Source of the DNA: Methanoculleus sediminis
GTDB lineage: Archaea > Halobacteriota > Methanomicrobia > Methanomicrobiales > Methanoculleaceae
NCBI RefSeq assembly: GCF_001017125.1
Contig: NZ_JXOJ01000006.1
Span: forward strand, 1-64,000
Direction: 5' to 3'
DNA: 64,000 nt
Shown: positions 14,254 through 60,394 of the stretch, one piece after another
How positions within the stretch are numbered: the first letter of the stretch is position 1
Layout of the letters: every line of letters starts with the position of its first letter
Program-made: the position numbers and the translations under genes
The notes under the pieces: generated by a model
Told to the model about the DNA's origin: nothing
The model's database searches: none
What the model saw: the letters and a program-made list of their open reading frames with translations, nothing else

Positions 14254-14530
14254 TGTCTGTAACACGGATTTCCATCGGCTATCGCCATGACTGCCCCCGC
14301 CCCCCGGGGCGGGGGAGGAGGCCGAAGGCCGGGTGGGGTGGGGGCACAGGTGTAGTCTTCTGGGGTAGAGACAGGGGAGGGGGGATGCTCCCCCCTCCCC
14401 GTCAGCCCCACAGCGAAACCCTTCAGGTTTCTCGAACTCCGCTCCTCGAAGCCTGATGGCTTCTCAAACTCCCGTCCTGCGGACGGTCGTTCTCCGGAGC
14501 GTCGTTCCCCCAATGGCGATATGCGACTGG
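14254..14530 (+). repeat. Convergent-gap repeat element, copy A
   Basis: The gap 14116-14710 contains no gene. Its core runs from TATCGCCA (14280) to TGGCGATA (14521). Inside are a CCCCCGCCCC/GGGGCGGGGG hairpin, a GGCC-GAA-GGCC hairpin, a GGGGAGGGGGG/CCCCCCTCCCC hairpin and two small variable-stem hairpins (14415-14431 and 14448-14463). The left flank carries ACACGGATTTCCATCGGC, which forms an extended inverted repeat in other copies. The gene ends point toward each other across it. Confidence 0.8.
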
Positions 14531-35089: not shown

Positions 35090-36328
35090 ATGGGAGATAT
35101 CGCTCGGCAGGCACCAGAGAAGGATACCGGTGAAGACATCTACCAGTATCTCCTGGAACGGATTACGAACCTCGAAAACCGAAACCTGGAGCTACGCGAG
35201 CAGTTCCGCCAGATGGAGTCCGAGAAACGATACGTTGAAACCCAGAAGATCCGCTACGAGCGGGAACTCCGAAAACTCAAAAGCGAGATCGAGCAGCTCA
35301 GAAGCCCTCCTCTCGTGATCGGAACAGTTACCGACGTTATCGACAACAGCCGCGTGATCGTGCGGAGCAGTGCAGGGCCGCGATTCCTGGTCCGTACGTC
35401 CCAGCTCATCGACCCCGATCTCCTCAAACCGGGTGTGCGGTGTACGCTCAACCAGCAGTCCCTCGCGATCGTGGACGTGCTCCCCACGAGCTACGACGCG
35501 CAGATCTACGGCATGGAGCTGGTGGAGTCACCGGAGGAGACCTACGAGAACATCGGCGGCCTTGAACCGCAGATCGAGGAGATCCGCGAAGCCGTCGAAC
35601 TCCCCCTGACGAAACCGCAGCTCTTCGAGAAGGTCGGCATCTCCCCGCCGAAGGGTGTTCTCCTCTACGGCCCGCCCGGCACGGGGAAGACCCTCCTCGC
35701 ACGGGCGGTGGCCCACCAGACGAACGCACACTTCCTCCGCGTGGTCGGTTCGGAACTGGTGCAGAAGTACATCGGCGAAGGCGCCCGCCTGGTCCGGGAG
35801 CTCTTCGACCTCGCGAAGCAGAAGGCGCCGTCGATCATCTTCATCGACGAGATCGACGCAATCGGTGCGCACCGGAACGACTCGACCACCTCCGGCGACC
35901 GCGAAGTCCAGCGGACGCTGATGCAGCTCCTGGCGGAGATGGACGGGTTCGACAACCGGGGCGACGTCAAGATCGTCGCTGCGACGAACCGGATCGATAT
36001 CCTCGACCGCGCCCTCCTCCGCCCGGGCCGGTTCGACCGGATGATCGAGATCCCGCTCCCCGACCACCAGGGGAGGCTTGCGATCTTAAAGATCCACACC
36101 CAGCACATGAACATCGGCGAGGACGTCAACCTCTCGGAAGTCTCGCGGCTGACGGAGGGCAAGAACGGCGCCGACCTCCGGGCGATATGCATGGAGGCGG
36201 GCATGTTCGCCATCAGGATGGAGCGCGACGCCGTCAACAGCGACGATTTCATGAAGGCGATCGACAAACTCTCGGTGGACTTCGACCGCCACCACTTCCA
36301 CACCACCTTCGGCGAGATGTTCGCCTGA
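35090..36328 (+). CDS. pan: Proteasome-activating nucleotidase, first copy
   Basis: PAN is the hexameric AAA ATPase that unfolds substrates for the archaeal 20S proteasome. This 412-residue copy has an N-terminal coiled coil (about 15-72), an OB domain (about 75-140) and an AAA module with Walker A GPPGTGKT (194-201), Walker B IIFIDEID, the pore-loop-region phrase VQKYIGEG and arginine fingers in LRPGRFDR. The C-terminus is EMFA, so the proteasome-docking HbYX position has Phe instead of Tyr. GAGGAG precedes the ATG. A second PAN lies 3 kb away. Confidence 0.95.
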
Positions 36329-39401: not shown

Positions 39402-40574
39402 TCAGAGATACATGCGGCTGTCCGGCGCCGCTACCTCGCGCTTCACCTTCTTTATCGCTGCGAGGAAGTCTTCCCGGTCGACGGCATCGGCGTCCCGCCG
39501 GATCGCCATCATCCCGGCCTCGCGGCAGATCGCCTGCAGCTCGGCGCCGGTGGTGTTCTCCGTGAGTTCCGCAAGCCCGGAGAGCTCCACGTCATCGGAG
39601 AGCGACATCTTCGCGGTGTGGATCTTCAAGATCTCGAGGCGCGCTCCGGCGTCGGGCAGCGGGACCTGGATGATCCGGTCGAACCGGCCGGGCCGGAGGA
39701 GGGCCGGGTCAAGCATATCGATCCGGTTGGTCGCCGCCATGATCCGGACGTTGCCGCGGTTCCCGAATCCGTCCATCTCGGCCAGGAGCTGCATCAGCGT
39801 CCGCTGGACCTCGGCACTGCCGGAGGTTCCGTCGTTCGTTCGCATGCTCCCGATCGCATCGATCTCGTCGATGAAGACGATCGCCGGAGCGCGCTCCCGT
39901 GCAAGGATGAAGAGCTCGCGCACGAGCTGCGCGCCCTCCCCGATGTACTTGTGGACGAGTTCGCTCCCGGACATCCTGATGAACCGGGCCTGGGACTGGC
40001 GGGCAACCGCCTTTGCAATCAGGGTCTTACCCGTGCCGGGCGGGCCGTAGAGGAGGATGCCTTTCGGGGGCTCGACGCCCACGCGCTCGTAGATCTCGGG
40101 CTTCGTGAGCGGGTACTCGACCGCTTCCCGGACCTCCTCGATCTCTTCCTTCAGGCCACCGACCTGCTCGAACGTCACGCTCGGCTGCTCGTCGAGTTCC
40201 ATGACCCTGACTCTCGCGTCGAAGATGTTGCCGATCGTCTTGACGATGGAGAGGGTGTTGTTCACCGCCACCTTCATCCCGGGTTTCAGGGTTCGGTGGA
40301 GTTTTTCGCTGACCGCGGTGACGTATTCCTGGTTGTTGCCCTGCTGCCGGAGATACACTTCGCCGTTCTCAAGTACATCGACCACAGCGGCAACAAACAG
40401 CGGCACCCGCTTTAACTGGGCGTTCTCTTTCCGGAGCTGCAGAAGCTCCTTTTCCAGCAACTCGTTCTTGAGTTTGTAATCCAGGATCTGTGCCTTCAGG
40501 TCCTGGATCTGGAGAGTGAGCATGTCGTGCTCGCTGCCGGGAGTGTTGCCAATGGTTTCGTCCATGTCACTCAT
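39402..40574 (-). CDS. pan: Proteasome-activating nucleotidase, second copy
   Basis: This 390-residue PAN paralogue has a shorter N-terminus with a coiled coil (about 18-56), an OB domain (about 57-125) and an AAA module with GPPGTGKT (176-183), IVFIDEID and LRPGRFDR. The C-terminus is RMYL, a proper HbYX proteasome-docking motif, unlike the first copy (MFA). Haloarchaea also carry two PANs. I place the start at the ATG at 40574, with GGAG 10 nt upstream inside a 28-bp palindrome; an ATG three codons later is possible. It is divergent from the phosphomevalonate dehydratase gene. Confidence 0.95.
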   Translation of the reverse strand: MSDMDETIGNTPGSEHDMLTLQIQDLKAQILDYKLKNELLEKELLQLRKENAQLKRVPLFVAAVVDVLENGEVYLRQQGNNQEYVTAVSEKLHRTLKPGMKVAVNNTLSIVKTIGNIFDARVRVMELDEQPSVTFEQVGGLKEEIEEVREAVEYPLTKPEIYERVGVEPPKGILLYGPPGTGKTLIAKAVARQSQARFIRMSGSELVHKYIGEGAQLVRELFILARERAPAIVFIDEIDAIGSMRTNDGTSGSAEVQRTLMQLLAEMDGFGNRGNVRIMAATNRIDMLDPALLRPGRFDRIIQVPLPDAGARLEILKIHTAKMSLSDDVELSGLAELTENTTGAELQAICREAGMMAIRRDADAVDREDFLAAIKKVKREVAAPDSRMYL

Positions 40575-40584
40575 ATAGTTGGTT

Positions 40585-40612
40585 CTCCAACCACATTATA
40601 ATGTGGTTGGAG
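40585..40612. promoter_or_regulatory. Perfect 28-bp palindrome between divergent genes
   Basis: Half-site CTCCAACCACATTA is followed directly by its exact complement, with no spacer. It fills most of the 43-bp gap between PAN-B and the phosphomevalonate dehydratase gene. The outer GGAG on each strand serves as the apparent Shine-Dalgarno of the gene on that side (10 nt and 5 nt spacing). The centre ATTATAAT resembles a TATA box. It may be an operator controlling both genes; this is inferred. Confidence 0.6.
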
Positions 40613-40617
40613 TGATC

Positions 40618-41016
40618 ATGCAAGGCAGAAGCATATCCAGGGGTATCGGAACCGGAGAACTCCTCGTCTCGTCCGAACCCATATCGTTCCTCTCGGGCGT
40701 CGACCCCGAGACCGGGATCGTCGTCGAGCACGGGCATCCGCTCGAAGGCCAATCCGTCGCCGGACGGGTGCTGGCCTTCCCGTACGGTAAGGGATCGACG
40801 GTCGGATCCTACGTGATCTACGCGCTGAAACAGAACGGGCTCGCTCCTGCGGCGATCATCAATACGGAGACCGAAGCGATCATCGCGGTCGGAGCGATCA
40901 TCGCCGGGATCCCCATGGTCGACCGCCTCCCGCCGGAATTCTCCGATCTCTCGTCCGGCACCACCGTGACGGTGAACGGAGATTCGGGCGAGGTCTCCTG
41001 CGACGGAGCTTCGTGA
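40618..41016 (+). CDS. Phosphomevalonate dehydratase small subunit (DUF126)
   Basis: This 132-residue protein is a DUF126/aconitase-X swivel domain, now recognised as the small subunit of phosphomevalonate dehydratase in the archaeal mevalonate pathway to isoprenoid lipids. It opens MQGRSISRGIGTGELLVSSE, with FLSGVDPETGIVVEHGHPLE and the conserved GKGSTVGSYVIY and the C-terminal GIPMVDRL. The large subunit is not in this window. The ATG at 40618 has GGAGTG just upstream. The J-domain gene follows by 6 nt. Confidence 0.9.
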   Translation: MQGRSISRGIGTGELLVSSEPISFLSGVDPETGIVVEHGHPLEGQSVAGRVLAFPYGKGSTVGSYVIYALKQNGLAPAAIINTETEAIIAVGAIIAGIPMVDRLPPEFSDLSSGTTVTVNGDSGEVSCDGAS

Positions 41017-41022
41017 GGCGCC

Positions 41023-41454
41023 GTGGAGACTCATTACGAGATCCTGGGCGTCTCCATTGACGCCACGCCCGACGAGATCCGGGCGGCCTACCGGAGCCTC
41101 GCCAAACAGTATCACCCGGACGTAAACCGCGACCCGGATGCAGGCGAGCGGTTCATCGCGGTCCAGCAGGCGTACGAGACGCTGATCGACCCCGATGCCC
41201 GGGCGCGCTACGACCTCGCTCTCCGGGGCGGCTGCACGACAGGGCCGCACGACCCGTTCCAGCAGTACCGTCCCGGCGGGCAGACGGTCTGGACGCGAGG
41301 GTTCTCGTGGAACGGGCAGGCACCGGCTTCCTGGGCCGGCAGGCTCGGCGTCATGCTCCTCCTCTTCCTCGGAGGAGTCCTGATCGTCTTCATGCTCGTC
41401 CTGTCGCTCCTCGCTCGTGTCATCTCGGGCGGCAGACGGCAGCAGGACTCCTGA
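41023..41454 (+). CDS. J-domain protein with C-terminal membrane anchor
   Basis: This 143-residue protein has an N-terminal J domain (residues 1-67) with the HPD motif in [17 protein letters not shown], then a Gly/Trp-rich linker and one strongly hydrophobic segment (about 108-134, [20 protein letters not shown]). It therefore looks like a membrane-tethered Hsp70 co-chaperone that presents substrates at the membrane. The start is a GTG 6 nt after the phosphomevalonate dehydratase gene, so the two are probably co-transcribed. It lacks the Gly/Phe, zinc and C-terminal domains of DnaJ. Confidence 0.88.
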
Positions 41455-46143: not shown

Positions 46144-46416
46144 GCACGGCTTCTGTGGGAGTATCGCCATAGGGGAGGGGCTGACGGGGAGGGGGGAGCA
46201 TCCCCCCTCCCCTGTCTCCAGATCATTATCTGACACCTACTACCCCCACCCCGCCCGGCCTCCGGCCTCCTCCCCCGCCCCCAAGGGGGCGGGGGCAGTG
46301 CGTGGCGATATCTCCATGAAATCCGTGCATCGGGGTAAGCGATGTCCCAGGAATGATATGTGAGTACGACTGGCCAAAGGTGCGAAGAACCGGAGCACGA
46401 GAAGCCATCAGGCTTC
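46144..46416 (-). repeat. Convergent-gap repeat element, copy D
   Basis: The gap 46021-46496 between FKBP and the CNNM gene (convergent) has no gene. The core TATCGCCA (46162) to TGGCGATA (46310) is 149 bp and inverted relative to copies A, B and E. It keeps both large GC hairpins and loses the middle. The outer flanks GGCACGGCTTCTG and GAAATCCGTGC form an imperfect extended inverted repeat. A variable-stem module GAAGCC-ATCA-GGCTTC lies at 46401-46416. Confidence 0.8.
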
Positions 46417-52386: not shown

Positions 52387-52660
52387 GAAAACGCGAAGCG
52401 TTTTCGAGTGGCGACGCTTCGCAAGAACGGAGCAGGAGCACCGTTAGGTGCGAAAAGGTGCCCGGAGAGGTGGCTACACCCGTGCACGGCTTTCCACCGG
52501 CTATCGCCACGCACTGCCCCCGCCCCTCGGGGCGGGGGAGGAGGCCGGGCGGGGTGGGGGTTGCAGGTGTAGCCTTATAAGTTGGAGACAGGGGAGGGGG
52601 GATGCTCCCCCCTCCCCGTCAGCCCCTCCCCCAATGGCGATACTCCCACGGTCCACTGCA
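52387..52660 (+). repeat. Convergent-gap repeat element, copy E
   Basis: The gap 52365-52789 between pspC and uvrB (convergent) has no gene. The core TATCGCCA (52502) to TGGCGATA (52642) is 141 bp with both large GC hairpins, plus a left flank GTGCACGGCTTTCCACCGGC. Upstream sit small hairpins GAAAACGC-GAA-GCGTTTTC (52387-52405) and GCACC/GGTGC-like pairs. The right flank contains CACGGTCCACTGCACCGGGC, also found in copies A and C. Confidence 0.8.
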
Positions 52661-60313: not shown

Positions 60314-60394
60314 GCTGTGGAGACAGGGGAGGGGGGCACGCCCCCCTCCCCGTCAGCCCCTCCCCAATGGCGATAGCCAGTGGAAATCCGTGTC
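60314..60394 (+). repeat. Convergent-gap repeat, copy F right half
   Basis: This half carries GGAGACAGGGGAGGGG and its complement, CCCCTCCCCAATGGCGATA, and the outer flank CCAGTGGAAATCCGTGT. The matching left half is not to its left but at 60497-60600, so the two ends are in the reverse order with 100 bp of AT-richer sequence between them. Confidence 0.7.

Follow-up and report, generated by a model that had tools for sequence, protein, structure and literature searches.

Archaeal bidirectional promoters have reportedly been described by Warman et al. in 2021 (as cited in PMC10268837). In Pyrococcus furiosus the TATA box lies at −30 to −23, with its last A 23 nt before the start and a pyrimidine-purine initiator (PMC6640164). 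A bidirectional P. furiosus promoter has the arrangement BRE-TATA-BRE, and a symmetric TATA box bound by TBP permits starts about 49–50 bp apart (PMC6640164).

The divergent gap analyzed here contains a perfect palindrome of 28 bp (14 + 14, spacer 0, no strand assigned) at positions 40585–40612 of the window, i.e. the whole 64-kb stretch of DNA. The right half TAATGTGGTTGGAG is the exact complement of the left half CTCCAACCACATTA and is directly joined to it, which confirms the spacerless palindrome that had been read from the sequence. Perfect 28-bp palindromes are expected by chance 0.0008 times per 64 kb at the window GC content of 65%, and with 0.03 expected in the whole 2.49-Mb genome the symmetry is indeed far beyond chance. 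No other spacerless perfect 14-nt inverted repeat is present within the window and no second copy was found in the genome, even when 3 mismatches in 24 were allowed. Because the sequence is single-copy, a mobile element or terminator was rejected. When at most 3 mismatches are allowed, 29 of the 35 Methanoculleus genomes contain its 18-bp core, ACCACATTATAATGTGGT (40590–40607, no strand assigned), nearly always once; the source genome is itself of the Methanoculleus type, and its close relatives include M. chikugoensis and Methanoculleus sp. MH98A.

The minus-strand neighbor is PAN-B, a proteasome-activating AAA ATPase (39402–40574, conserved start 40565; Pfam AAA, AAA_lid_3 and a weak proteasomal OB domain). 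On the plus strand lies an AcnX swivel-domain protein (DUF126, 40618–41016; Pfam PF01989, E 9.5e-37) of the phosphomevalonate dehydratase small-subunit type, followed after 6 nt by a gene for a J-domain (DnaJ) protein (41023–41454, plus strand), with which it probably forms one operon. This gene pair is present in most Methanoculleus; the linkage is seen only in and near the genus, and the pair was not found in other families. Some Methanoculleus without the pair (L009, L021) have a weak dyad. The gap had been given as 43 bp, which assumes that PAN-B starts at 40574. The start kept in relatives is, however, the next in-frame ATG at 40565, and other families have the upstream ATG absent or replaced, so 52 bp is the better value for the gap. 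The GGAG at each end of the palindrome had been taken as a likely Shine-Dalgarno sequence. The one on the PAN-B side probably is not, since it lies 19 nt from ATG 40565 and is not conserved in the order. On the DUF126 side it lies 5 nt from the ATG, but this GGAG is confined to one subclade and most of Methanoculleus has GGCAG in its place.

The window encodes two PAN paralogues separated by a few genes (35090–36328 and 39402–40574). PAN-B ends in MYL, which we take to resemble the HbYX proteasome-docking motif, and PAN-A ends in MFA. The window also holds four near-identical G-rich hairpins of the GGGGAGGGGGGATGCTCCCCCCTCCCC type (14374–14400, 46186–46212, 52591–52617 and 60326–60351), with similar flanks of GGAGACA and GTCAGCCCC sequence. 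Exact matches to the pattern number 6 in the genome, 3 of them in the window, and these hairpins are a small dispersed repeat.

DUF126 was detected in 147 of the 159 genomes of Methanomicrobiales, and the DNA upstream of it was compared across six families. PAN-B was the divergent neighbor in nearly all upstream regions compared. The distance from the conserved PAN-B ATG to DUF126 was 45–56 nt among 86 distinct gaps, and in these gaps two AT-rich boxes were observed at fixed places, the first about 8–12 nt from the PAN-B ATG and the second mostly about 29–33 nt from the conserved ATG across the order. In Methanocorpusculum, where PAN-B is unlinked from DUF126, a plain TATA box, AATATAAA, lies as far from PAN-B as the second box does. 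Within Methanoculleus the mean pairwise identity was 90% for the gap vs. 76% for the third codon positions of PAN-B. This difference supports that the gap between PAN-B and DUF126 is under constraint. Sequence comparison is enough to show both AT boxes with their spacing, the constraint, and the history of the symmetry given below.

We consider it probable that the palindrome is the core promoter of PAN-B, with the TATA box at the dyad centre, interlocked with the promoter of DUF126; TATA function, the start sites and mutual exclusion of the promoters are what we infer. The centre had been called TATA-like, which was borne out: ATTATAAT at 40595–40602 is the predicted PAN-B TATA box (minus strand) and corresponds to the order-wide AT-rich box and to AATATAAA of Methanocorpusculum. 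The predicted DUF126 TATA box, ATATA at 40573–40577 (plus strand), is likewise an order-wide AT-rich box and overlaps the upstream PAN-B ATG; positions 40569–40577 showed no change in a parsimony count over the 52-nt gaps. According to the P. furiosus rule (PMC6640164), DUF126 transcription would start at 40600 (plus strand), where TA is found at −1/+1, 23 nt past the last A of the TATA box, giving a predicted leader of 18 nt that contains GGAG. By the same rule PAN-B transcription would start around 40574 (minus strand; PMC6640164), at or next to the upstream ATG, and the predicted transcript is leaderless or has a 9-nt leader. The BRE/TATA/Inr geometry published for archaea fits both predicted starts (PMC6640164). 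A literature search for mapped transcript starts in Methanoculleus found no relevant paper.

With this arrangement the PAN-B and DUF126 promoters would be packed into about 50 bp, each TATA box on or beside the transcription start of the other gene. The divergent core promoters would share DNA, so that a complex of TBP, TFB and polymerase forming on one should hinder the other. The mirror symmetry would be a Methanoculleus elaboration of the PAN-B promoter, commonly with 12 of 14 pairs. One subclade completed it through two changes that turned the right arm into the complement of the left, either by a template-switch (quasipalindrome) mutation or by selected substitutions. Some observations count against the core-promoter view. 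The ACCAC before the PAN-B TATA box is unlike the RRAAA BRE of P. furiosus, and the 52-nt gap is identical in six species that are 9–21% apart at PAN-B third positions. Core-promoter function alone leaves the 18–28 bp extent of the dyad and the invariant TGTGGT unexplained.

A natural comparison is offered by two Methanoculleus genomes (G014 and G023) that have PAN-B without DUF126 beside it. DUF126 is at another location in G023, with a different upstream region, and was not found in the 80%-complete genome G014. A metallophosphoesterase gene, by sight Mre11-like (DNA-repair nuclease-like), lies about 300 bp away in both. The palindrome block stayed with PAN-B in the two species: about 56 nt beside PAN-B, both arms included, are identical between them, whereas the DNA farther out differs clearly and their PAN-B third positions match at 82%. 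Since the block is kept beside PAN-B without DUF126, it appears to serve PAN-B, with no need for DUF126. A regulator coupling proteolysis to isoprenoid synthesis had been suggested. We found no positive evidence for such coupling, with DUF126 off-site in these two Methanoculleus and in Methanocorpusculum, and because DUF126 is off-site in some lineages and its J-domain partner is found only in or near Methanoculleus, the idea gains no support.

The symmetry itself has a narrower distribution than the boxes. In Methanoculleus gaps as many as 9 of 9 core pairs match, the shuffle p being at most about 0.01 in most of them, and no significant dyad at the palindrome axis was found in the gaps of other genera. 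Arm complementarity was 5.9 in Methanoculleus; outside the genus it was 3.70 for arms from the same genome vs. 3.66 for arms swapped between families. An order-wide ACCAC...GTGGT dyad with 6–8 bp spacers (observed in L091 and L150, which belong to other families) was also considered and rejected, as it was not above cross-family pairing. The perfect palindrome was present in 6 among the species examined and many other Methanoculleus have 11–12 of 14 pairs, the commonest older form having 12. Perfect forms map to a single subclade of the tree. Of the genomes with a 52-nt gap, 10 carry a linked set of three changes, at 40583, 40608 and 40610, and the other 18 lack it. Two of them, 40608 G to T and 40610 C to G, complete the dyad; both are in the right arm and always occur together, and the outer right arm in the preceding form was GGTGGCAG. 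Six species carry the perfect form with an identical 52-nt gap and four carry mismatches. All 28 genomes with a 52-nt gap share TGTGGT in the right arm. Core pairs 4, 6 and 8 vary on the left only, pair 3 varies on either side, and no both-sided change was found in the core pairs; the right arm is under more constraint than the left. One species has a CG pair at position 13, which may be an alignment shift. In G004 (upstream gap L005) the 52-nt gap is that of G047 and has the older form, though the PAN-B/DUF126 tree places G004 inside the perfect subclade, which suggests recombination of the promoter or a wrong placement.

Taken together, the symmetry is a genus-level property that was perfected recently, and the pattern of right-arm changes would fit a quasipalindrome template-switch mutation as well as selection. 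Absence of the palindrome from relatives in which both genes remain adjacent had been named as half of a refuting test; it is absent in such relatives outside the genus. From the sequence-only reading the symmetry and the TATA-like centre are supported, whereas a conserved dimer operator, the hairpin and the coupling are not.

It is conceivable, although rather unlikely, that the palindrome in Methanoculleus is an operator for a dimeric regulator that covers the PAN-B TATA box and the DUF126 start and switches both genes together. The dyad lies far beyond chance and is significant in most gaps of the genus, both completing changes are symmetric, and the two species without DUF126 at the site keep both arms beside PAN-B. 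Archaeal repressors typically sit over the TATA box and start site, which we counted in favor of an operator. However, there is one site per genome: the proposed genome search for the half-site gave matches at background level and no second site, and half-site and dyad searches for a regulon found no further sites, though a regulator may act at a single site. No regulator gene was seen adjacent among the open reading frames inspected (the library search covered only some neighbors), and a search with the Archaeoglobus heat-shock regulator HSR1 as candidate gave no usable result. Core pairs show one-sided changes, the right arm is the more constrained one, and sister genera have no dyad. A conserved dimer operator is not supported, given this combination of Methanoculleus-only symmetry, single site, one-sided changes and unequally constrained arms. 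We also regard as unlikely the composite scenario of an interlocked pair, kept over most of the order, that serves either PAN-B or the AcnX operon (with the J-domain gene in Methanoculleus), never both at once, and to which Methanoculleus has added a dedicated dimeric regulator.

That a single symmetric TATA box works in both directions, as in the shared-TATA bidirectional promoters known from Pyrococcus and other prokaryotes, is very unlikely. ATTATAAT is perfectly symmetric and lies between divergent genes, but by the published spacing the rightward start is predicted to fall around 40623, inside DUF126 and past its ATG. A shared TATA box would start DUF126 transcripts within the gene, and therefore two boxes are needed; the separate box at 40573–40577, unchanged in the genus, suits DUF126 better. 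A BRE-like RRAAA is found on neither side, with ACCAC on both, although this consensus was derived in Pyrococcus and another may apply here. An RNA hairpin masking both ribosome-binding sites, as had been proposed, is also very unlikely: if both arms were transcribed together the RNA would fold at −20.1 kcal/mol (z −5.2), but neither predicted transcript contains more than one arm, the starts themselves being predicted, substituting the commoner right arm gives −11.6 (z −0.93), little better than shuffles, the core pairs lack the both-sided changes by which compensation would conserve a stem, and PAN-B has no conserved Shine-Dalgarno sequence.

The 28-base palindrome is thus a modest curiosity rather than an established master switch. 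The locus is a compact divergent promoter with a layout that most of Methanomicrobiales retain and a symmetry that can be traced on the tree. This makes it well suited to the question of whether archaeal core promoters that overlap are mutually exclusive, and it illustrates how a couple of linked mutations can turn an imperfect palindrome into a perfect and striking one. With the palindromic operators of archaeal dimeric repressors the locus shares a perfect dyad over the TATA box and start site; it differs in having no regulon and no neighboring regulator, in its restriction to one genus and in the asymmetric constraint. The locus resembles quasipalindrome template-switch mutations (PMC7202029, PMC8794818) in that one arm came to complement its partner exactly through two linked changes, but here the event is inferred from the tree only and the third change, at 40583 outside the palindrome, is left unexplained. 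Archaeal bidirectional promoters (PMC6640164) likewise have a symmetric TATA box and drive divergent transcription from very little DNA. In contrast to these, the palindrome lacks BRE-like flanks, a shared TATA box would give no full-length DUF126 transcript, and each gene seems to have a TATA box of its own, about 20–26 bp from the other box.
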